38,450 bases of DNA from a virus. Shown one piece after another: positions 1 to 38,450 of this stretch (position 1 is its first letter; every line of letters starts with the position of its first letter). The translations under genes and the position numbers were made by a program. The notes under the pieces are model-generated. The model was not told the origin of the DNA. It was given only the letters and a program-made list of their open reading frames with translations, and searched no databases. The stretch lies in IMG/VR virus record IMGVR_UViG_3300022744_000064, positions 1 to 38,450 of that record. One strand, given 5' to 3'.

Positions 1-120
1 TTCCGCCGCTGGAATTGAATTATTTGGCGAGAACAATGAAATAAAGATTTTGAGCAAGCAGCTAACCGCCGTCACAGCCCGGCGGGATGAGCTGCTAGAA
101 ACTATGCACAAGCTTGCATG
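1..120. repeat. Terminal direct repeat, left copy (matches 38204-38323)
   Basis: All 120 bases are identical to 38204-38323, in the same orientation. The identity stops sharply at 120/121, where this copy runs into the cassette while the right copy continues into sequence that reappears at 3266. This is what overlapping ends of a circular molecule look like when two versions of the circle exist. Confidence 0.95.
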
Positions 121-130
121 CTCTAACTGA
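2..130 (+). CDS. 3' end of accessory gene (second copy of 37989-38354), cut short by the cassette
   Basis: The frame starting at base 2 is the C-terminal part of the protein encoded at 37989-38354, running through ELLETMHKLAC. After the cassette junction at 121 it adds only Ser-Asn and stops at TGA (128-130). The uninterrupted copy continues with about ten other residues (CLEGLSDERS) that overlap the next gene. On the cassette-plus circle this gene therefore encodes a slightly shorter protein. The affected part is only the extreme C-terminus, so function may not be lost. The family is a common prophage protein of the HTPEPW...ARRIVACVN type, with no known role. Confidence 0.7.
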   Translation, partial: SAAGIELFGENNEIKILSKQLTAVTARRDELLETMHKLACSN

Positions 131-281
131 TGCTCCAGAGCACTCATCACCGCAAGATTTAAGGATAATTACAAATCTATACGCCAGCCCGGTACCGGCG
201 CAGCAGGTTGAAATAACCGGGGAGATTCCGGACTTTACCGAAGCGGCAGAGGTAAAACCGGAATTAAAACGTCAAATCTCG

Positions 282-583
282 ATGCTAAACCAAAAACTAC
301 GAAAATTATTTATCGCGGCTATAGTTTGGAAATCGATACATCATGTCGCTACAAGTCCAACGATCAAGTTGTCATTGAAGCAACTGATGATGAAAGCGGA
401 GAGCCTTATGCGACTATGAGCGTGTGCCTTGCCCATGAACGCGTTAAGCCTGGCCACACCTTTATCGACACGAATAACTTACCAGACGCTCTGGAAATTC
501 TTGTCAGTAATAAGGTGGTGGAACCAACAGGAAAGATCGGACGAAGTGGATTTTGTGAATATCCCGAAGTCCGTGTACTTTAA
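282..583 (+). pseudogene. Small phage-type gene interrupted by a one-base frameshift
   Basis: An ATG at 282 opens MLNQK, and the well-formed sequence IIYRGYSLEIDTSC through to PEVRVL at 583 lies in another frame without its own ATG. The two frames join if the run of five A at 292-296 had one more A, giving about 100 residues. The C-terminal part has ordinary coding character (VVIEATDDESGEPYA, PDALEILVSN). The frame upstream of 282 is also open from 114 and reads like the C-terminal tail of another phage protein (NLYASPVPAQQ), so the original gene may have been longer. I do not recognise a family. A TTG at 326 could start a shorter product. A real mutation, an assembly indel or a slippery site are all possible. 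Confidence 0.4.
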
Positions 584-588
584 ATATT

Positions 589-617
589 AAGTGCCTTCTA
601 TCGAAGGCACTTTTTAA
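589..617 (+). terminator. Rho-independent terminator between convergent genes
   Basis: Bases 589-598 (AAGTGCCTTC) pair with 603-612 around a TATC loop and run into a T-tract (611-615). The preceding A residues would also allow some function on the other strand. It separates the plus-strand remnant ending at 583 from the minus-strand gene ending at 645. Confidence 0.8.
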
Positions 618-644
618 ACTGATTCCTTTTAATATATATAACCG

Positions 645-1106
645 TTAAATAATTTCAATACCGCATTTATCAGAAAGAAATTCAGATAGAACATCGTTTA
701 AATCACTGCAAAGATCACTATCGAGTTTTACACCAAATCGCTCAATCACTTGCGCACTTTCGTGGGTCAAATCATCGACATCATTTTCGCTTAACGCACT
801 CACTGATTCTACATCGACATTACGGAACTGTGTTTCGCCAAGAAGTCCAAGAGTCAAACTTAGACTGTATAACACACGTACTGCATGATCAAAGGCGGCA
901 TCCGTCGCATCACTCACAGAAAGATTATCCAACGATGTTCCTATCATCGCTGGGAAATCCTCAATGCTTAAATCACGCACTTGTTCATGGCAGGACATTG
1001 ATTTTTTTTGCTCATGCATCGCCTTAAGAAGCCTTCCAATCAAATCACATGCAGCACGTTCATTTTTCAAAATATCTTTAGCTAACACCTCAGGACAATC
1101 ATTCAT
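645..1106 (-). CDS. Acidic 153-aa protein of unknown function, divergent partner of the DndC-like gene
   Basis: I do not recognise a family. The product is acidic and mostly helical in character, with many Asp, Glu, Leu and Ser residues, four scattered cysteines, and no signal peptide, membrane segment or helix-turn-helix that I can see. The start ATG follows AAAGGTG at good spacing. It is transcribed away from the DndC-like gene across a 154-bp divergent promoter region, and its own promoter appears to contain a 15-bp palindrome. As the only other intact gene of the cassette it is a candidate partner, regulator or immunity protein of the DndC-like product; this is inference from position only. 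Confidence 0.7.
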   Translation of the reverse strand: MNDCPEVLAKDILKNERAACDLIGRLLKAMHEQKKSMSCHEQVRDLSIEDFPAMIGTSLDNLSVSDATDAAFDHAVRVLYSLSLTLGLLGETQFRNVDVESVSALSENDVDDLTHESAQVIERFGVKLDSDLCSDLNDVLSEFLSDKCGIEII

Positions 1107-1150
1107 GCCAACACCTTTCTAGATTAAATTAACGCAAAATATAAGATTAG

Positions 1151-1179
1151 ACAATACACCCTTAAAGGGTGCCTATCAA
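1151..1179 (-). promoter_or_regulatory. Promoter of the 153-aa gene
   Basis: Read on the minus strand, a -35 TTGATA (1174-1179) and a -10 TATTGT (1151-1156) are separated by 17 bp. The spacer is almost entirely the palindrome at 1157-1171, so a bound protein would directly control this promoter. Confidence 0.5.
1157..1171. promoter_or_regulatory. Palindromic operator candidate, CACCCTT-A-AAGGGTG
   Basis: Perfect 7-bp inverted repeat with a single central base, lying between the divergent cassette genes and inside the spacer of the minus-strand promoter. A further half-like CAACCCTT follows at 1178-1185, next to the plus-strand -35. This is typical of an operator for a dimeric regulator. Neither cassette protein has an obvious DNA-binding fold, so the regulator is unknown. 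Confidence 0.5.
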
Positions 1180-1182
1180 CCC

Positions 1183-1210
1183 TTGTTATTTATTATCTCT
1201 CAATTAGAAT
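1183..1210 (+). promoter_or_regulatory. Promoter of the DndC-like gene
   Basis: TTGTTA (1183-1188) and TAGAAT (1205-1210) are 16 bp apart, giving a predicted start near 1217 and a leader of about 44 nt before the ATG at 1261. The leader has only a weak Shine-Dalgarno sequence. Confidence 0.45.
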
Positions 1211-1260
1211 GCGCTCTAAATTTTGGGGCTAAACCTGTTTCATTTATTTGAGTATTTATC

Positions 1261-3015
1261 ATGTCAACACAAGCACATTTAAAACTTGAAAGCACAAATC
1301 TGATTCCTCTATCTGAGGTAAGTAATAGTTTTCAAACGCTTACTCTAGAAGAAAAAATCGAACGTACATCTGATGTAATAAAAGGGTTGCTTGCTGACGG
1401 AAAACATTTATTACTTGCGAGTAGTTTTGGTAAAGATAGCGGAGTACTTTTGAATATTTTTTTGCAAGCGATGAAAGAATTTGTTACCGAAAATGGCTCT
1501 GCACCTTGTTGTATTGTAGTCAACAGTAATACCTTGGTTGAGTCTCCATTGCTTGATGCCTATAGTCGATTAGAAGCTGCGAAAGTTACTGAATACTGTG
1601 AGCGCCATAATCTTCCGGTGACAATGCATATCGTCGAGCCATCACTATCGAATAACTACCTCGTCAATATCATCGGTGGACGCACGATTACTGTCGACTC
1701 AGCGAACGATGCCAAGTGCAGTATTATGATGAAACTAAATCCGATCAATTCACATAAAAATCGTATCTTCAAACAATTCGGCAAGGAAAATGTTGTGACC
1801 CTAGTAGGGACTCGTTTTAGTGAGTCTCCGGAGCGCGGCCGCGCAATGAAAGATCGCGGCGATTCGTATGATTCAATTTCTATCAACACAGCAGGTGATA
1901 AAGTAATTTCGCCAATCGCTGAATGGGAATTAGACGATATATTTTTTTATATTGGGTACGTGCGCTCAAATAAAATTGAATGTTATAGCGATTTCGAAGC
2001 CTTAGTTGAAACCTATCGTGATATTAACGGCGGTGAGTGCATGGTCAATGTCTACACCACTGGGCAGGCATCTAAGACTCCATGTGGGGGAAGATCGGGT
2101 TGTTGGATTTGCTTAAGAATTTCTGAAGACAAATCTATGGAAAATATGCTTAAACGCGATGAGAACGCCTATATGCGTCCTTTAAATGATTTAAGAAATT
2201 ACCTTGCCGCCAACCAATATGATCCCTCAAAACGCAATTGGCTGGCTCGCACGTTGAATGACGATGGCTCTGTAACAATCGCTCCTAATTCATATAGCCC
2301 TGATTATTGTGAGACCCTTCTTCGATTAGTCCTTAGTATACAAATGCGCGAAAATCGTGCTGCGGCAGCACTAGGTATCGCACCACGTTTTACACTCCTG
2401 CGCCTCAAAGACGTTATTGCTATTGAGGTTCTTTGGGCTCGGTATGGATACCATACCAGTGCCAGGGCTTTGCAGATTTTTGATGACGTTGTTGTTCAAG
2501 GTGAAGAATTTGATGTCCCAACAAACCAACCAATATTTCACAAAAACTCCTTGCCGCGTTTTAGCGCGAAGGTCTCATTTGCTGATAAAGATTTCTTTGG
2601 GCTCACGAGTGGACTAAGAGACGTAGAGGCGATTATTGCTGACTGCGAGCGAACCGTTACAAAAGCTGACGGGCGGATCTATTCTGATGTAAATACATCC
2701 GCAGAATTCACAGTTGATGAAGAGGGTGCGGATCTTTTTTTCCAATTTGAGTATGAGAGATTTTTAGAGCGATACACAAACCCAAGTTATTGTCCCACAC
2801 AAGTCTTTCATTATTTTTTACGACAAGGCACCGTTTCTTTGCACCGGGGTGGACATGCTGAAAATGATCGCATGTTGCGAATGGCAAATCAAATTCACCG
2901 CAAAGGCATAACCAAAGTATTGAATAATCCGAACCTGTTACTCAGTAGACTTTCGGATTTGGCAGGATCAGAAAACGTAAATGTGGTTATCGAACAACAA
3001 TGCACGTTATTTTAA
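1261..3015 (+). CDS. DndC-like PAPS-reductase-family protein (stand-alone)
   Basis: This 584-aa protein belongs to the PAPS reductase/ATP pyrophosphatase superfamily and most resembles DndC. DndC is the Fe-S ATPase that activates DNA for phosphorothioation. Residues 55-60 are the PP-loop SFGKDS. Next come C153 in a CSIMMKLNP segment, GTRFSESPERGR (183-194) matching the family's GxRxxES motif, and a cluster C260, C275, C281, C284 with CGGRSGCWIC followed by DKSM, as in the DndC iron-sulfur region. The last 200 residues are divergent and unrecognised. No dndA, B, D or E, brx or ssp partner lies nearby, so sulfur transfer to DNA cannot be assumed. Its place in an optional cassette with its own promoter suggests a phage-defence, exclusion or anti-defence role (inference). 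Confidence 0.8.
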   Translation: MSTQAHLKLESTNLIPLSEVSNSFQTLTLEEKIERTSDVIKGLLADGKHLLLASSFGKDSGVLLNIFLQAMKEFVTENGSAPCCIVVNSNTLVESPLLDAYSRLEAAKVTEYCERHNLPVTMHIVEPSLSNNYLVNIIGGRTITVDSANDAKCSIMMKLNPINSHKNRIFKQFGKENVVTLVGTRFSESPERGRAMKDRGDSYDSISINTAGDKVISPIAEWELDDIFFYIGYVRSNKIECYSDFEALVETYRDINGGECMVNVYTTGQASKTPCGGRSGCWICLRISEDKSMENMLKRDENAYMRPLNDLRNYLAANQYDPSKRNWLARTLNDDGSVTIAPNSYSPDYCETLLRLVLSIQMRENRAAAALGIAPRFTLLRLKDVIAIEVLWARYGYHTSARALQIFDDVVVQGEEFDVPTNQPIFHKNSLPRFSAKVSFADKDFFGLTSGLRDVEAIIADCERTVTKADGRIYSDVNTSAEFTVDEEGADLFFQFEYERFLERYTNPSYCPTQVFHYFLRQGTVSLHRGGHAENDRMLRMANQIHRKGITKVLNNPNLLLSRLSDLAGSENVNVVIEQQCTLF

Positions 3016-3114
3016 TCAATATGGTGAAATGGCATTACCTGTAATTCAGCAATACAAACTGTATATGCGGCAATTGCGCGTACCCAAAAAACTTACGACG
3101 GGTTTAGCTCTGAG

Positions 3115-3270
3115 GTGCAGAAGTGGTATGAGCCAAAAATGGAGCAGCAACCAGCAGAGCTTCCGGACGATGTGCGATACGTTATAGACCCGCGACTTAA
3201 TGACGATGGCGAGTATTACATTCTCGGAAAGGTCATTAATGAAATATTAGAATCCGCAAAGCGAATTTAG
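3115..3270 (+). CDS. Fragment of a small phage-type gene at the right edge of the cassette
   Basis: The frame is open from 3028 (just after a stop) to TAG at 3268-3270. It reads like real coding sequence (TVYAAIARTQKTYDGFSSE, then ELPDDVRYVIDPRLNDDGEY), but there is no ATG before 3139. A GTG at 3115 is the coordinate given here, with ATG 3139 as the alternative. The 5' part was probably lost when the cassette was joined, or this is a short gene with a rare start. The stop codon straddles the cassette boundary at 3265/3266. Unknown function. Confidence 0.4.
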   Translation: MQKWYEPKMEQQPAELPDDVRYVIDPRLNDDGEYYILGKVINEILESAKRI

Positions 3271-3392
3271 AGGGGTTAAGTGATGAGCGAAGTTAGTGAA
3301 TACCAAAAATCGGCGGCTCTTATGGCTTTAGATATAACAACATTATATAGCGCAGCGAAAAGAAAGCCCGAAATGGCGCTGGAGTTTTTTGA
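3266..3392. repeat. Second half of the terminal overlap (matches 38324-38450)
   Basis: All 127 bases are identical to 38324-38450. Together with 1-120 this shows that the right end of the window is the cassette-free version of the same locus. Confidence 0.95.
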
Positions 3393-3531
3393 AATGCTGC
3401 ACGACAGAAAAGAAAAAATTACTAACGATAAAGAGTACAGAGATTCTCGATTTTCCGCAGCGTGCGTTCTTATTTCGATGGGCGATCGGCAGGCTATTGG
3501 GGATAACCAAAAAATAATACGGGAAAAATAA
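3283..3531 (+). CDS. Small hypothetical protein, last gene before attP (82 aa)
   Basis: ATG at 3283 follows GAGGGG at proper spacing; a GTG one codon earlier is less likely. The product begins MSEVSEYQKSAALMALDI and is helical, charged and soluble, with no recognised domain. The same gene starts again at 38341, where it overlaps the end of the upstream gene. On both versions of the circle it keeps its ribosome binding site. Its last codons overlap the first arm-type repeat of attP, so transcription of this operon runs into the attachment site. Confidence 0.7.
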   Translation: MSEVSEYQKSAALMALDITTLYSAAKRKPEMALEFFEMLHDRKEKITNDKEYRDSRFSAACVLISMGDRQAIGDNQKIIREK

Positions 3532-3551
3532 GGGAAAAATACGGGAAAAAA
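3517..3551 (+). repeat. Three phased arm-type repeats left of attP core
   Basis: ATACGGGAAAAAT, ATAAGGGAAAAAT and ATACGGGAAAAAA start at 3517, 3528 and 3539, an exact 11-bp period, so all three face the same side of the helix. The motif recurs in the same orientation right of the core. This is how arm-type integrase binding sites in lambda-like attP regions are arranged. Confidence 0.6.
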
Positions 3552-3602
3552 TTTTATAAGTTATTCGGAAGGCTTTTTAATTTATTGTTTTTAAAGTGGT
3601 TT

Positions 3603-3650
3603 TTGGTCGGAACGGCGGGATTTGAACCCACGACCCCTACACCCCCAGTG
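3603..3650 (-). other. attP: attP core: 3' half of a tRNA-Pro gene
   Basis: Read on the minus strand this is the end of a bacterial tRNA. It holds an anticodon loop with GGG, the variable region, a T-arm GTGGG-TTCAAAT-CCCGC, the 3' acceptor strand CGTTCCG, and ACCA. A G at position 72, requiring C1, and A73 are hallmarks of tRNA-Pro. The 5' half (D-arm and 5' acceptor strand) is absent, so it is not a working tRNA gene. Phages that integrate into tRNA genes carry exactly such a 3' segment to restore the gene. The predicted target is the host tRNA-Pro(GGG) gene. The precise crossover cannot be set without attL and attR. Confidence 0.85.
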
Positions 3651-3712
3651 TGCCATTGCAAACCGCGCATGCCATTGTTTTTAAAAGCCTTTCGCATTTT
3701 TTAACCATCGAA

Positions 3713-3725
3713 AAACCGGAAAAAT
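3713..3725 (+). repeat. Right arm-type site 1
   Basis: AAACCGGAAAAAT, a degenerate copy of the repeat at 3517-3551, in the same orientation on the far side of the attP core. A weaker CGGAAATA follows immediately. Confidence 0.4.
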
Positions 3726-3764
3726 CGGAAATATAAGCCGTTGATAACGCTTGGTATTTTTTCG

Positions 3765-3777
3765 ATACGGGAAAAGA
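3765..3777 (+). repeat. Right arm-type site 2
   Basis: ATACGGGAAAAGA matches the left repeats at its first 11 positions. It lies about 115 bp beyond the core edge, consistent with a second attP arm. Confidence 0.5.
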
Positions 3778-3869
3778 TTTTTGATTGATTACGAGGATTT
3801 TAATGTGATTACGGGCTTGCAGATCCTGAGCGAGCGCTTGAGGTGATCGAGAATCTGGATAGATACAAT

Positions 3870-5810
3870 CTACAGGTTCCCCTCGCTTACCCAAACCCCG
3901 CCAGCTCTAATCCATGCTTTTTGCGCACCAACAGCAGGGGCCATGTTTTTGGTTCTGGCGCCGTTTCCCCACGTACCGGAAGTTGGGACGCCAAGACCAA
4001 TCACGGCGCCGATAGCGTATGAACCATCGTCAAATATTGATGCGACCGGGCCAGCAGTCTGCGTTATAGTTGAGCTGAAAGTAGTCCCGTAGGAAATTAT
4101 CGATCCGTTATCAATGGTCACTGCTGGTGTAATAGTGGATCCATGCGTTATTAGGGTTCGATAAGAAACTGACAACGCCGAAGCTCCCACATTGTTTACA
4201 GTTACCCCGCGCAGTACGGTTACACCCTGCAGCAGATTATTGTGCGTTTGTATTTTGCCTCCCTCAAACGTCGCTGCAGACTGTGTGGAAGTGCTGATAA
4301 GCTCACCAATTTCGCAATTAGAAAACACGCCTTTTGTCGGTATGTTATTAGCAAAACCGATTGATAGATGCGCTACTCCAACTCGGTCAAACCTAAATCC
4401 ATCCGGCTCGCATACGACCTCGTTTATCCCACCGCCGGTAACATTAATTAGGCCGACTTGCCCAGCGACATTAATCAACCTTCCCTGTATTTCAGGGTTG
4501 TCGATATCAATTGAGCTGCCTGCCTGCGCTTCCACCGAAGCAATAATATCACCCTCTATTAAAGGAGTTATGTATTTATTGTGCGACCCGGTTAATATGG
4601 CGCTTGCGTCAGAAGATGGTGCATTTGCATCAAGCCTAAGAGTGTTATATGTGCAGCGATTTCCTCCAAGCACCCAGGTATAAGTTCCGACCTGCCCGGT
4701 AGCTTGCTCGGAGTGGATATTATCAATCAGGCACGATAATGTGTTTGGACTTACATAAATAGCTTTGTATTTTGATTTCTCAACCTGCAGCCGAAGAATA
4801 TGCGACATGTTAGTCGTGTCGCCATCGTCGTTTATACTAAAGGCGTATTCAGTGGCGTTTCCACACTGCTCTATGCTGATAAAATCAATAACACTGTCCC
4901 ACATTTTATTAATTTTTACTCCAAACCCGTCGAAGTTATACACCCTAATTTTTCCGAATTTACCTAAAAATGGGTTTGATAGCAGCAGAGCGTTACAGGT
5001 GCCGCCGTTGCCAAAAAGTGAGATATTAAAATTGGTTGCCTGTCCAGAATATGTAAATGCTGTGTAACCGGTTCCGCTAACTATAATCGCCGAGTCAGAA
5101 CCTACGGCATTCCCATAGCCTGCGGATCCAATGTCAAACCCAGCGGTATTTGCGGTAATTGGCCCGGTTATTTTAAATAGACCGCCCCTAGATTTAATTA
5201 TTTTGTTTTTACCTGTCGACGAATTTCCATAGTTACATGCCGCCTGAATTGCTGTTGTACAGTCCACAATTCCGCCAGGAATAGCGCCGAAATCTTCAAT
5301 ATAAAGATCGGTAGCTTTTCGTAAAAACGCAAACGCTCCGTTTATTACTGTCCAACCTAAGTCATTCGTCAGGCCAGAGCTAGATACAACATTAAACGCT
5401 CCTCCGCCGACTTTGCCGCCAGATGTATGTTCGTATATCTCGACTACATCGCCGATTATTGCCGACGTTGTTGCCAAATCCGCAAAGGTGGCGACGGTTT
5501 TTATTGTTCCAGCGGTAGAGCTGACAATTAAACCTTCTAGCGTTTGCACATTGTCAACCGGCCACCCTGGCTGCGTTACGTCTGCCGAGTCCTTTAACAA
5601 AAATTTAAACGATGCAGTGCTTAGCCAAATATCGCACTGGCCGTACTGATCCAAAATAATCGGGTTTGTATTGGGCGTGCCTGCGGCATCTTTTGTGGTT
5701 GCAAGTGGCGTAGTGGTGCCAGCGGCATAGGTGTACAATTTACCGCCCGATAGCGGGTTTCCGTTTGTGTCGAACGCACGAAATTTGGCCTGTGGTGCCA
5801 GACTGGTCAT
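3870..5810 (-). CDS. Tailspike / tail fibre protein
   Basis: Last gene of the late operon, 646 aa, the receptor-binding and probably polysaccharide-degrading or -binding spike. The N-terminus (AKFRAFDTNGNPLSGGKLYT, then a DQYGQCDIWL-type segment) is a head-binding module found in many podovirus spikes. From about residue 160 the sequence becomes a pectate-lyase-like right-handed beta-helix, with IEDFGAIPGG followed by many short Gly/Asn/Ser-rich turns. In P22 the tailspike also lies at the end of the virion genes next to attP, as here. Catalytic residues cannot be assigned by eye. The start ATG at 5810 is the only one that includes the conserved N-terminus. Confidence 0.85.
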   Translation of the reverse strand: MTSLAPQAKFRAFDTNGNPLSGGKLYTYAAGTTTPLATTKDAAGTPNTNPIILDQYGQCDIWLSTASFKFLLKDSADVTQPGWPVDNVQTLEGLIVSSTAGTIKTVATFADLATTSAIIGDVVEIYEHTSGGKVGGGAFNVVSSSGLTNDLGWTVINGAFAFLRKATDLYIEDFGAIPGGIVDCTTAIQAACNYGNSSTGKNKIIKSRGGLFKITGPITANTAGFDIGSAGYGNAVGSDSAIIVSGTGYTAFTYSGQATNFNISLFGNGGTCNALLLSNPFLGKFGKIRVYNFDGFGVKINKMWDSVIDFISIEQCGNATEYAFSINDDGDTTNMSHILRLQVEKSKYKAIYVSPNTLSCLIDNIHSEQATGQVGTYTWVLGGNRCTYNTLRLDANAPSSDASAILTGSHNKYITPLIEGDIIASVEAQAGSSIDIDNPEIQGRLINVAGQVGLINVTGGGINEVVCEPDGFRFDRVGVAHLSIGFANNIPTKGVFSNCEIGELISTSTQSAATFEGGKIQTHNNLLQGVTVLRGVTVNNVGASALSVSYRTLITHGSTITPAVTIDNGSIISYGTTFSSTITQTAGPVASIFDDGSYAIGAVIGLGVPTSGTWGNGARTKNMAPAVGAQKAWIRAGGVWVSEGNL

Positions 5811-25885: not shown

Positions 25886-26247
25886 TACCGCCACCAATTC
25901 GCTATAGCCGCAAAAACATCCAACGGGCACTCATGCCGCAATGGGTATTTCTGCAATTGTTTGTGCCACAAATCAGACTGCGGCCCGTGAATTTCTCTAA
26001 ATTTCTTCCGGCTTCCGTGCGTCACAATATCGTCACAGCCTTGGCACAAACCCAAAATAAACCACGGCCCCACATAAGCTTTGTTGTGCTTAAACGTGGA
26101 GCCTTCGCAGTGGTGACCAATTAAAGGCGCCTGATTACCGCAAGCAGAACAGCACTCCAAATCCGTTTTAATCCACACCAAATGCCGCATGGCTGCAGCG
26201 CTTGGCGCGGGGGATTTCTTAGTGATTTTCCGCTGCAACTTCGCCAC
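25885..26247 (-). CDS. Ref-like HNH-type recombination nuclease
   Basis: A 120-aa zinc-binding nuclease candidate. ECCSACGN (31-38) provides Cys ligands. LIGHHCEGSTFKHNKAYVGP (42-61) holds the His-His pair and Gly typical of Ref-type HNH domains. FILGLCQGCDDIVTHGSRKK (63-82) completes the second metal site, and FREIHGPQSDLWHKQL is the family's C-terminal helix. P1 Ref is a RecA-dependent nuclease that enhances recombination; related small proteins sit in many phage recombination clusters. It overlaps the RdgC end and the resolvase start. Confidence 0.65.
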   Translation of the reverse strand: MAKLQRKITKKSPAPSAAAMRHLVWIKTDLECCSACGNQAPLIGHHCEGSTFKHNKAYVGPWFILGLCQGCDDIVTHGSRKKFREIHGPQSDLWHKQLQKYPLRHECPLDVFAAIANWWR

Positions 26248-27124
26248 CCAGCGCGCCAGTTAAATCGCTTAAAAATTCGCGGATAGTCGCCGACATAATA
26301 AAAAACTGTGCGTCGAACTCTTCTGCAGCGGTTTCGGGCTTGCGGTCTCCCGCCTGTTCGCTAAGTAAATCCGAGAATTTGAGCTGCTTAATTCCCAGCC
26401 ATTCATCAAGCGTAAAAGTTAATTTTTCGCCCCAGGCGAGGGACAGCTTTTGAACACGCAAGCCAACGCTTAAGTGATTGCCAATCTCTTCAGAGCTTAA
26501 ATCCTGCTTTTTAGCTTTGATATTTCGCCCGTCTTTGGGTGCTGACAGCTCGCACGATTCACCCAGCATAAATGGCGCTTGCGCATAACCCTGGCGCACC
26601 CATTCAGTCATGAGCAATTCAGGGTTGGTTTCGGTTTGCAGAGGTGTGCATGGCAAATTCCCTATGGCCAAACTCAATTCGTGAATAAATCCCTCAGCGC
26701 GCTTTGTTGAAGCGGTATTGATAATCATCCGCTGATTTATGAAATCAATGTACGCATAGTCCAGGCGATCACGAACAAATGCGCGCGGGAGCAACGAAAA
26801 TATAATTTCATCTTTCAGATCCTGGCGCTCTTTACGGCCCAGCTTGCGCGATTGCGCTTGCTCAATCTCCTTAACCTTTTCATTCACCGCCGCATTAACG
26901 ACGGCGCTGGGCAATATTTTCTCCTGCGTTTTAATGCACATCATTATGCAGTGGTTGACCACATGAATAAGGCTTTCACTGCCTGCAATGGGCGGCACAA
27001 ATCCCCGGCGCATAGCATCAAGGTTGCCGCAGGGCGCAAACTTATGCGCATCGAGCGCGGCATCAAGCGCCAAATCATGCAAATCAAATTTGATATTGTA
27101 AATTCTTAAATTCTTAAACCACAT
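26219..27124 (-). CDS. rdgC: Recombination-associated protein RdgC
   Basis: A 301-aa protein matching bacterial RdgC along its length: MWFKNLRIYNI at the start, then GFVPPIAGSESLIHVVNHCI, EEKILPSAVVNAAVNEKV-type sequence, LKDEIIFSLLPRAF, and SLAIGNLPCTPLQTE. RdgC forms a ring dimer around DNA and limits RecA activity. Bacterial genes normally encode it, and its presence in a phage early operon next to Ref-like and RuvC-like nucleases suggests control of recombination on replicating phage DNA. It is close to full length. GAGGG precedes the ATG. Confidence 0.92.
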   Translation of the reverse strand: MWFKNLRIYNIKFDLHDLALDAALDAHKFAPCGNLDAMRRGFVPPIAGSESLIHVVNHCIMMCIKTQEKILPSAVVNAAVNEKVKEIEQAQSRKLGRKERQDLKDEIIFSLLPRAFVRDRLDYAYIDFINQRMIINTASTKRAEGFIHELSLAIGNLPCTPLQTETNPELLMTEWVRQGYAQAPFMLGESCELSAPKDGRNIKAKKQDLSSEEIGNHLSVGLRVQKLSLAWGEKLTFTLDEWLGIKQLKFSDLLSEQAGDRKPETAAEEFDAQFFIMSATIREFLSDLTGALGGEVAAENH

Positions 27125-31263: not shown

Positions 31264-31727
31264 AAACCCATTTAACCGCCTGCGATTTGATTGCTATTGG
31301 CGCGTGCCGCGACGGCGTCAGGGATTTTATAGAAAGGACTAATTGCGCCGCATTCATGCCAGTCAAATTGCTTTTAAAAATGGCTGCAGCATCGGAAAAG
31401 GAATACATAAAAAAAGCGGCAAAACTAAACGGCGGCAACGGCAACGGCGACGGCTACGGCGACGGCAACGGCGACGGCTACGGCGACGGCAACGGCAACG
31501 GCCACGGCAACGGCGACGGCTACGGCAACGGCAACGGCAACGGCAACGCCAACGGCGACGGCTACGGCGACGGCAACGGCAACGGCTACGGCAACGGCGA
31601 CGGCTACGGCAACGGCAACGGCAACGGCGACGGCTACGGCTACGGCGACGGCTACGGCAACGGCTACGGCAACGGCAACGGCTACGGCGACGGCAACGGC
31701 TACGGCGACGGCAACGGCGAATTTTAG
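31248..31727 (+). CDS. Protein with a long Gly-X repeat tail (159 aa)
   Basis: The first 60 residues (ACDLIAIGACRDGVRDFIER, then VKLLLKMAAASEKEYIKKAA) form a small helical domain that I associate with other phage proteins ending in Gly-Asp-Tyr-rich tails. From residue 61 to 157 every second residue is Gly, with one Ala exception, alternating with Asn, Asp, Tyr or one His. The tail is hydrophilic and must be disordered or polyproline-II-like; it could mediate phase separation or sticky binding, as speculation. The start at 31248 has GAGG upstream and overlaps the previous gene. Function unknown. Confidence 0.7.
   Translation: MDTEVKTHLTACDLIAIGACRDGVRDFIERTNCAAFMPVKLLLKMAAASEKEYIKKAAKLNGGNGNGDGYGDGNGDGYGDGNGNGHGNGDGYGNGNGNGNANGDGYGDGNGNGYGNGDGYGNGNGNGDGYGYGDGYGNGYGNGNGYGDGNGYGDGNGEF
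31428..31718 (+). repeat. Hexanucleotide repeat array GGCNAC, about 48 units
   Basis: The run consists of 6-base units GGC-NAC in which only one position (N) varies freely between A, G, T and, once, C. One unit has GCC in place of GGC (31548-31550). It encodes the Gly-Asn/Asp/Tyr tail. The other frames on both strands are open but low-complexity and are side effects of the repeat. Slippage should make the length variable. Confidence 0.95.
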
Positions 31728-36787: not shown

Positions 36788-37678
36788 ATGGCAGAGAACA
36801 GCTCAATTGAATGGACGCACCATACATTTAACCCATGGTGGGGATGCGCCAAGGTTTCCCCTGGTTGCGATAATTGCTATGCCGAAAACCTGGCAAACCG
36901 CTTCTCAACAGGAATCTGGGGGCCAAATGCGGATCGTCGCACCTTCGGTGATAAGCACTGGAACGAGCCGCTAAAGTGGAACAGGAAGGCCGCCAAGGAA
37001 GGCACTCGCTATCGGGTATTCACAGCAAGCATGGCCGATGTATTTGATAAAAATGCGCCGGAAGGTGCCCGTGATCGCCTTTGGAAATTAATAAAAGACA
37101 CGCCAAGCCTTGATTGGCTGCTGCTGACTAAGCGCATAGGTAACGCGGCCAATATGCTGCCGGACGACTGGGGCGCAGGGTATAAAAACGTATGGCTTGG
37201 AATTTCAGTGGTCAACCAGGAAGAGGCCTATAGGGATATTCCGAAGCTGCTAGACACTCCAGCTCGCTTGCGCTGGCTGAGTATTGAGCCACTCCTAGCA
37301 CCACTGAGCTTTGGGGGGATGTGGATTGAATTTACCGACTCCTCAATCCACAAAAACATGCTTGAAGCGATTAACTGGGTTGTGGCTGGCGGTGAGTCCG
37401 GCAAGGGTGCGCGTCCAATGCACCCGGAATGGGCCAGAACAATCCGGGACCAGTGCCAAGCCGCTGGCGTCCCATTTCTATTCAAGCAGTGGGGGGAGTG
37501 GGCGCCCGAGAGCGAAATTACTGTTGATGGCTCTCCGCTTTCAATGACTTGGCAAAACAATTCCGCCCTACATATTTGCGAAGGCGGCGAACGGGTTTAC
37601 CGCGTCGGGAAAAAATTAGCCGGTCGGACCCTAGACGGGAAATTACACGACGAATATCCAATTGTGGACGAGGAATAG
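36788..37678 (+). CDS. Phage Gp37/Gp68 family protein (DUF5131)
   Basis: A 296-aa protein with the family signature SSIEWTHHTFNPWWGCAKVS and then PGCDNCYAE, giving Cys20, Cys27 and Cys30 in a cluster resembling radical-SAM or Fe-S enzymes. Further landmarks are FTASMADVFD, LDWLLLTKRI, LRWLSIEPLL and VAGGESGKGARPMHP. These proteins are widespread in phages and mobile elements. The fold is probably radical-SAM-like, but the reaction is unknown. It ends in IVDEE, with GAGGA serving as ribosome binding site for the next gene. Confidence 0.85.
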   Translation: MAENSSIEWTHHTFNPWWGCAKVSPGCDNCYAENLANRFSTGIWGPNADRRTFGDKHWNEPLKWNRKAAKEGTRYRVFTASMADVFDKNAPEGARDRLWKLIKDTPSLDWLLLTKRIGNAANMLPDDWGAGYKNVWLGISVVNQEEAYRDIPKLLDTPARLRWLSIEPLLAPLSFGGMWIEFTDSSIHKNMLEAINWVVAGGESGKGARPMHPEWARTIRDQCQAAGVPFLFKQWGEWAPESEITVDGSPLSMTWQNNSALHICEGGERVYRVGKKLAGRTLDGKLHDEYPIVDEE

Positions 37679-37988: not shown

Positions 37989-38354
37989 ATGTCTAATCAC
38001 ACGCCAGAGCCTTGGCTAATAAATGAAAATTGCGCCGACGAGGTAGGCGTTTTGTGCGCCGAAAATACGCAGGAATATGGCAGTATTATTCCTATCCTAT
38101 TGGCGTATGGCAATAAAGCAAATGCAAACGCTCGCCGCATAGTCGCCTGCGTTAATGTGTGCAAAGGCTTATCAAATGAAGATTTAGAAAATGGGGCTTT
38201 ATTTTCCGCCGCTGGAATTGAATTATTTGGCGAGAACAATGAAATAAAGATTTTGAGCAAGCAGCTAACCGCCGTCACAGCCCGGCGGGATGAGCTGCTA
38301 GAAACTATGCACAAGCTTGCATGTTTAGAGGGGTTAAGTGATGAGCGAAGTTAG
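37989..38354 (+). CDS. Accessory protein, uninterrupted copy (121 aa)
   Basis: The product begins HTPEPWLINENCADEVGVLC and contains NARRIVACVNVCKGLSNEDL, a sequence type common in prophage accessory genes of proteobacteria with no known function. The last part (SKQLTAVTARRDELLETMHK) is helical. In this copy it ends CLEGLSDERS and overlaps the next gene by 14 bases. In the copy at 2-130 the cassette changes the last residues. Its start follows GACGAGGAATAACT, the same junction as at the two previous genes. Confidence 0.7.
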   Translation: MSNHTPEPWLINENCADEVGVLCAENTQEYGSIIPILLAYGNKANANARRIVACVNVCKGLSNEDLENGALFSAAGIELFGENNEIKILSKQLTAVTARRDELLETMHKLACLEGLSDERS

Positions 38355-38450
38355 TGAATACCAAAAATCGGCGGCTCTTATGGCTTTAGATATAACAACA
38401 TTATATAGCGCAGCGAAAAGAAAGCCCGAAATGGCGCTGGAGTTTTTTGA
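38204..38450. repeat. Terminal overlap, right copy (cassette-free junction at 38323/38324)
   Basis: 38204-38323 equals 1-120, and 38324-38450 equals 3266-3392. Read as a circle, the molecule returns to its start here, but through a junction that lacks 121-3265. Confidence 0.95.
38341..38450 (+). CDS. Start of the small pre-attP gene, second copy (partial)
   Basis: Identical to the first 110 bases of the gene at 3283-3531; it is cut by the window end. Here the upstream gene overlaps its start by 14 bases, whereas on the cassette-plus version a different reading frame ends just before it. Confidence 0.9.
   Translation, partial: MSEVSEYQKSAALMALDITTLYSAAKRKPEMALEFF

Follow-up and report, generated by a model that had tools for sequence, protein, structure and literature searches.

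A gene in an optional cassette of a temperate phage encodes a 584-aa protein that, as judged from its sequence, is a DndC-type PP-loop protein with a DndC-type active site. The gene lies in the window analysed here (all 38,450 nt of IMG/VR record IMGVR_UViG_3300022744_000064; Table 1) and adds a new, divergent member to a plasmid-borne family, itself a variant of an enzyme kind already known. We tentatively propose that the protein is a DndC-type sulfurtransferase of mobile elements, which would be fed by a host desulfurase and would thiolate a nucleic acid, with DNA favoured, without DndD or DndE.

Table 1. Positions of features in the window and of second PP-loop genes at loci of homologues
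Feature	Position	Strand	Basis or remark
Optional cassette, 3,145 bp	121..3265		absent from second allele
DUF4313 gene, 85 aa, TTG start, inside cassette	326..583	+	probably frameshifted remnant of a longer gene
153-aa acidic ORF, pI 4.3, divergent from DndC-like gene	645..1106	-	ATG start; orphan
Divergent intergenic region, 154 bp	1107..1260		promoter and repeat scans
DndC-type PP-loop / [4Fe-4S] sulfurtransferase (predicted), 584 aa	1261..3015	+	ATG start; family models, cysteines, tree, AF2 model
PP-loop SFGKDS, residues 55-60	1423..1440	+	alignment of relatives
Cys153 (DndC Cys146), cluster ligand	1717..1719	+	alignment to Salmonella DndC
Cys260 (DndC Cys262), DndC-specific	2038..2040	+	alignment to Salmonella DndC
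CGGRSGCWIC: Cys275, Cys281, Cys284 (DndC Cys273, Cys280, Cys283), cluster ligands	2083..2112	+	alignment; PMC12193691
C-terminal family-specific domain, residues ~436-570	2566..2970	+	conserved in plasmid homologues
Open frame without start, 5'-truncated gene remnant, right cassette edge	3020..3270	+	no phage match
Small 83-aa phage gene in the cassette-attP interval, in both alleles	3280..3531	+	ORF, allele comparison
attP core, 46 bp, 3' part of tRNA-Pro(GGG) gene	3604..3649	-	sequence identity
Tyrosine integrase, 408 aa	35559..36785	+	family matches
Contig end, cassette-less allele	38204..38450	+	120 bp = 1-120, then 127 bp = 3266-3392
Second PP-loop gene, first setting	L013:6678-7796, L014, L016, L025		
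Second PP-loop gene, second setting	L028:5806-7874, L026, L033		
Second PP-loop gene, third setting	L012:4696-5673		

Active site of the DndC-like protein

The DndC models TIGR03183 (E=3e-41) and PADLOC DndC (E=1.6e-43) both matched the 584-aa protein, which upholds the preliminary description of this reading frame, exactly as delimited there, as a stand-alone DndC-like gene. Pfam PAPS_reduct matched at 3e-5 and the PHROG "PAPS reductase" also matched; TIGR00434 (CysH) was not among the NCBIfam matches. The TIGR03183 score of 141.7 bits is under the curated cut-off of 290.4 bits, and NF005316 gave 160 bits with a cut-off of 536. The score under the curated cut-off speaks against the reading proposed here, as does the PP-loop, which reads SFGKDS in the window protein and SGGKDS in most relatives. 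In an alignment of 22 homologues, S55, G57, K58, D59 and S60 were invariant. All the motifs that had been named beforehand were located in the protein, i.e., SFGKDS, GTRFSES (residues 183-189), and the cysteine cluster with CGGRSGCWIC (275-284) and DKSM (290-293).

Cysteine positions were mapped with Salmonella DndC as the reference, which has a cysteine at every position published for E. coli B7A (PMC12193691). In this alignment DndC C146, C262, C273, C280 and C283 correspond to C153, C260, C275, C281 and C284 of the window protein. For DndC itself, a C280S change is reported to abolish phosphorothioation (PMC11662687). The five cysteines were invariant in all 20 dnd-linked DndC proteins and nearly invariant in 31 stand-alone homologues, among which C153 was kept in 97%. 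Four of the five have been reported to be [4Fe-4S] cluster ligands in DndC, and C262 and C273 to be absent from APS reductase (PMC12193691); counterparts of these two DndC-specific residues were also missing, by alignment, from the PAPS reductase of phage Dobby and from the second PP-loop proteins encoded near some homologues. The AF2 model of the protein (pLDDT 85, pTM 0.84) contains a PP-loop domain at residues ~23-297, and Foldseek placed the [4Fe-4S] thiolases TtuA and LarE among its best matches to solved structures, with NcsA and CysH in a second look. These matches were confined to the PP-loop domain and are as compatible with a tRNA thiolase as with a DNA enzyme.

Absence of Dnd partners and the C-terminal domain

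The claim that the gene has none of the usual Dnd, Ssp or BREX companions held across the whole record. A PADLOC scan of the 49 window ORFs called DndC for the 584-aa gene only and no DndB, DndD, DndE, Ssp or BREX protein; SspB, SspC, DUF4007 and PglZ had neither a PADLOC nor a Pfam match among these ORFs. Searches with Salmonella DndB, DndD and DndE by tblastn returned nothing from the window, and tblastn for the same three proteins found none in the homologous loci L002-L035. DndD scored above the cut-off in 2 of 24 genomes carrying a stand-alone copy, and the idea that the gene is simply a paralogue of a dnd system encoded in trans therefore fails at the level of the family; that stand-alone copies sit mostly in genomes without DndD is a strong tendency among these 24 genomes, whose completeness is not given. 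One Marinobacterium MAG carries a stand-alone copy (L021) and a canonical dndBCDE locus (L036) in the same assembly.

In the phylogenetic tree the 20 DndC proteins with dndB or dndD neighbours formed a single clade (99/99), with the window protein outside it. The window protein paired with a protein of an Oleiphilus MAG (L009; 100/100) within the plasmid and Pseudomonadales copies. The branch leading to CysH is very long (5.08), and the tree alone cannot decide membership in CysH. Its tree position and the missing Dnd genes place the DndC-like protein outside the Dnd systems.

According to profile alignments, the DndC models end near residue 405-435 of the window protein, and the C-terminus does extend beyond known DndC models as first noted; it is not unplaceable, since the domain is common to the plasmid family, in whose members it is conserved up to residue ~565. 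In E. coli DndC, residues 433-482 and the last helix dock DndD at a predicted interface that has experimental support (PMC12193691). This docking region has no clear counterpart in the window protein, in which the family-specific domain is found instead.

A plasmid-borne family under purifying selection

Members of the family were found by tblastn in 2,550 of 72,556 PLSDB records, with 1,987 of the matches covering 80% or more of the query, and 2,031 of the 2,550 records are predicted to be conjugative. Typed carrier plasmids include IncC, IncA, IncHI2A and IncHI1A. A profile search of a sample of 398 Pseudomonadota genomes recovered a full-length copy in three of them, a contrast between plasmids and genomes that is indicative only, PLSDB being skewed to enterobacterial isolates. 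The nearest relative of the window protein is the Oleiphilus MAG protein (57% identity over residues 6-565), while plasmid and genome copies are 40-43% identical to it over residues ~27-565. The search with alignment A2 yielded 39 genome loci and one weak viral locus, the search of viral contigs with alignment A5 yielded no viral locus, and single-sequence searches of viral and genome contigs with the DndC-like protein gave no match. IMG/VR yielded no further phage copy, in a search that may omit very near records.

The family is under strong purifying selection and behaves as a useful backbone enzyme, not as a fast-evolving conflict gene. Values of dN/dS were 0.071 for IncC versus IncA (0.044 in the core), 0.054 for IncHI2 versus IncHI1, where dS is near saturation, and ~0.1-0.2 for Pseudomonas pairs. 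Diversifying selection was rejected on account of these low values; the divergent PAPS gene reported from pQBR103 (PMC4989453) encodes 387 aa and is too short to belong to the family. The only annotation that the family carries is "PAPS reductase family protein". Our literature search found no paper on what the plasmid family does, and the family is not mentioned in an anti-defence survey (PMC11541004).

Several kinds of genes were found repeatedly near the homologues, although none of them occurs in the window. Genes for DNA or SAM methyltransferases are found close to the family gene in IncC and IncA plasmids and in Marinobacter (L031) and Neptuniibacter (L003), a proximity that may be due to chance because plasmids carry many such genes. 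A second PP-loop gene, PAPS reductase-like, was found near the stand-alone gene in at least three settings (Table 1), in one of which a conserved 286-aa gene lies between the two; it was dropped as a conserved partner because it is absent from the window and from most plasmids. PRTRC genes, including a ThiF-like one, adjoin the DndC-like gene in L007 (1-5576), but in the Pseudomonas loci L014, L016 and L025 the distance is ~5-7 kb, and a PRTRC ThiF as sulfur-carrier partner was dropped on these grounds. IbrA/IbrB was also considered and dropped.

The optional cassette and the 153-aa neighbour

The portal and coat proteins of the phage are P22-like. The two terminal segments of the contig, 38204-38323 and 38324-38450, are each 100% identical to 1-120 and 3266-3392, respectively. 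These 247 bp join position 120 to 3266 and thus represent a second allele without 121-3265; since they start by repeating the beginning of the contig, the contig closes on itself and then enters the alternative allele. The junction is clean, with neither target duplication nor microhomology, and the 127-bp overlap resembles an assembly k-mer, which suggests that the sampled population probably contained both alleles. The attP core matches a tRNA-Pro(GGG) gene of another genome at 46 of 46 bp. The order of genes on the circle is int, the DUF5131 gene, two small genes, the cassette, the 83-aa gene and attP, which would place the cassette near one prophage end in a lysogen. The allele without the cassette and the position of attP together bear out the proposal of an optional cassette between int and attP. 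When the integrase, the cassette flank and the 83-aa gene were used as queries, no related phage was found.

Other features of the phage were recorded along the way. The DUF5131 gene (phrog_2045; 36788-37678), which is radical-SAM-like, follows directly after the integrase gene and lies shortly before the cassette. An RdgC-type exonuclease is encoded at 26219-27124 (PHROG "exonuclease recombination-associated"; Pfam RdgC at 5e-99 among the window ORFs); other products of the phage are a Sak4-like annealing protein and a Gam-like protein for end protection. A glycine/asparagine-rich repeat array (GDGNGNGYG...) with many imperfect tandem copies is found at 31430-31720 in a 159-aa gene beside a DUF6948 gene. 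One window ORF has strong matches to the PADLOC candidate defence models PDC-M41B and PDC-M30B.

The 153-aa acidic ORF is of no known family, as had been described; it had no match in Pfam, NCBIfam, PADLOC or PHROGs. When the region was shuffled 500 times, every stop-free run was shorter than this frame (maximum 153, mean 71), and, being acidic and beyond chance length, the ORF is probably a gene. Relatives were found neither in the phage and plasmid collections nor in IMG/VR, the last examined by pattern search, and a search of 391 genomes of the nearest homologue's order, run without a positive control, gave no match. The gene was missing from all 48 loci examined, 39 of which came from the homologue search, and the structure model (pLDDT 40) was unusable. 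Nor could the suggested regulated divergent promoter be substantiated: the 10 promoter-like matches in positions 1-4000 are at chance level (9.5 expected), and repeats in the 154-bp intergenic region are weak only. From what these searches recovered, the 153-aa neighbour is an orphan cassette gene unrelated to the DndC-like gene.

Proposed function and alternatives

It is probable, by analogy with DndC, that the protein performs DndC-type sulfur chemistry on some nucleic acid, with DNA a plausible, if still tentative, substrate. The N-terminal PP-loop domain would bind ATP and adenylate a substrate oxygen, and a four-cysteine [4Fe-4S] site (C153, C275, C281 and C284), together with C260, would take sulfur from a host cysteine desulfurase and pass it on. 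The DndD-docking C-terminus of canonical DndC would be replaced by the family's own domain, and we propose that the family can for this reason act without DndD and DndE. The favoured substrate would be the DNA of the element's own replicon, and a thio-mark made by a gene at the prophage end might shield the element against host or rival nucleases. Three points favour DNA: the DndC-specific cysteines are retained, DndC is the nearest characterised family, and mobile carriers would gain by marking their own DNA. Canonical DndC requires DndD and DndE for its action on DNA; this dependence leaves a lone DndC without a known way to find DNA and counts against the DNA reading. That a large family of mobile-element proteins makes a DNA sulfur modification alone, as a new self-marking chemistry without DndD and DndE, is a doubtful extension of the proposal.

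If a DNA mark is made, an overlooked sulfur modification, invisible to ordinary sequencing, would be present on many conjugative plasmids in the IncC, IncA and IncHI groups, and self-marking, if true, would be carried by thousands of conjugative plasmids as well as by an optional lysogeny cassette of a phage. Even if the substrate were tRNA, phage and plasmid genes annotated as "PAPS reductase" or cysH could encode a DndC-type sulfurtransferase and not a sulfate-assimilation enzyme.

A role as a thiolase of tRNA or another RNA, in the manner of TtuA, NcsA or TtcA, which would tune translation for the mobile element, is unlikely but the best of the alternatives. The fold matches tRNA thiolases equally well, the best solved-structure matches include TtuA and LarE, with [4Fe-4S], and the U34-tRNA thiolase NcsA, and no DNA-scanning partner, which is absent here, would be needed; the likeness is, however, limited to the shared PP-loop domain, and the protein keeps the DndC-specific C262/C273 and is nearest to DndC models in sequence. 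We regard as still less probable that the gene serves defence or superinfection exclusion from the prophage, with the sulfurtransferase marking or blocking incoming phages or plasmids. Such a role is in keeping with its location, between int and attP in an optional cassette near one end of the prophage, and with the activity of DndC relatives in Dnd, Ssp and BREX-4 defence (PMC10853773, PMC12839542), but no restriction or effector gene was found in the cassette or recurring beside the homologues, and in IncC and IncA plasmids the gene belongs to the backbone and evolves slowly, unlike a fast-changing gene. The two-gene system of the preliminary description, in which the 153-aa acidic protein would be the partner, is very improbable; the two genes are divergent neighbours within one optional cassette, but the 153-aa protein has no relatives wherever searched and is absent from every homologous locus, and the pair recurred neither in other phages nor in any other collection or homologous locus searched. 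An auxiliary metabolic cysH, i.e., a PAPS reductase boosting sulfate assimilation, is the annotation that most pipelines would give from the Pfam PAPS_reduct and PHROG matches and is likewise highly improbable, as DndC models score far higher and the DndC-specific cysteines are present.

Comparison with known systems

The window protein has in common with the DndC of Salmonella and E. coli dndBCDE systems the PP-loop ATP pyrophosphatase core and the five conserved cysteines. Its identity to dnd-linked DndC is 24-29% over the core; it lacks DndB, DndD and DndE, lies outside the dnd-linked clade (99/99) and has an extra family-specific C-terminal domain in place of a clear DndD-docking counterpart. 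SspD of Ssp systems and BrxP of type-4 BREX are likewise sulfurtransferases of the PAPS-reductase fold that act in mobile-element conflict, but BrxP lacks the DndC cysteine dyad (PMC12839542), its PADLOC match to the window protein is weak (E=0.016), and the window has no SspB, SspC, DUF4007 or PglZ. CasCysH of type IV-B CRISPR systems is also a plasmid-borne PP-loop protein, but it lacks the catalytic cysteine (PMC8175902), whereas no cysteine of the set is missing from the window protein. Phage PAPS reductases (PHROG 424), such as that of Pseudomonas phage Dobby, share the PP-loop fold and a phage location beside the integrase; the Dobby protein, whose gene adjoins a cytosine methyltransferase gene, is less than 26% identical to the window protein and lacks the two DndC-specific cysteines. 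By comparison, the "phosphoadenosine phosphosulfate reductase family protein" of IncC, IncA, IncHI1 and IncHI2 plasmids and of Pseudomonas megaplasmids belongs to one family with the window protein over nearly the full length, C-terminal domain included; the plasmid copies have no 153-aa neighbour, and the copy described here is carried by a temperate phage.
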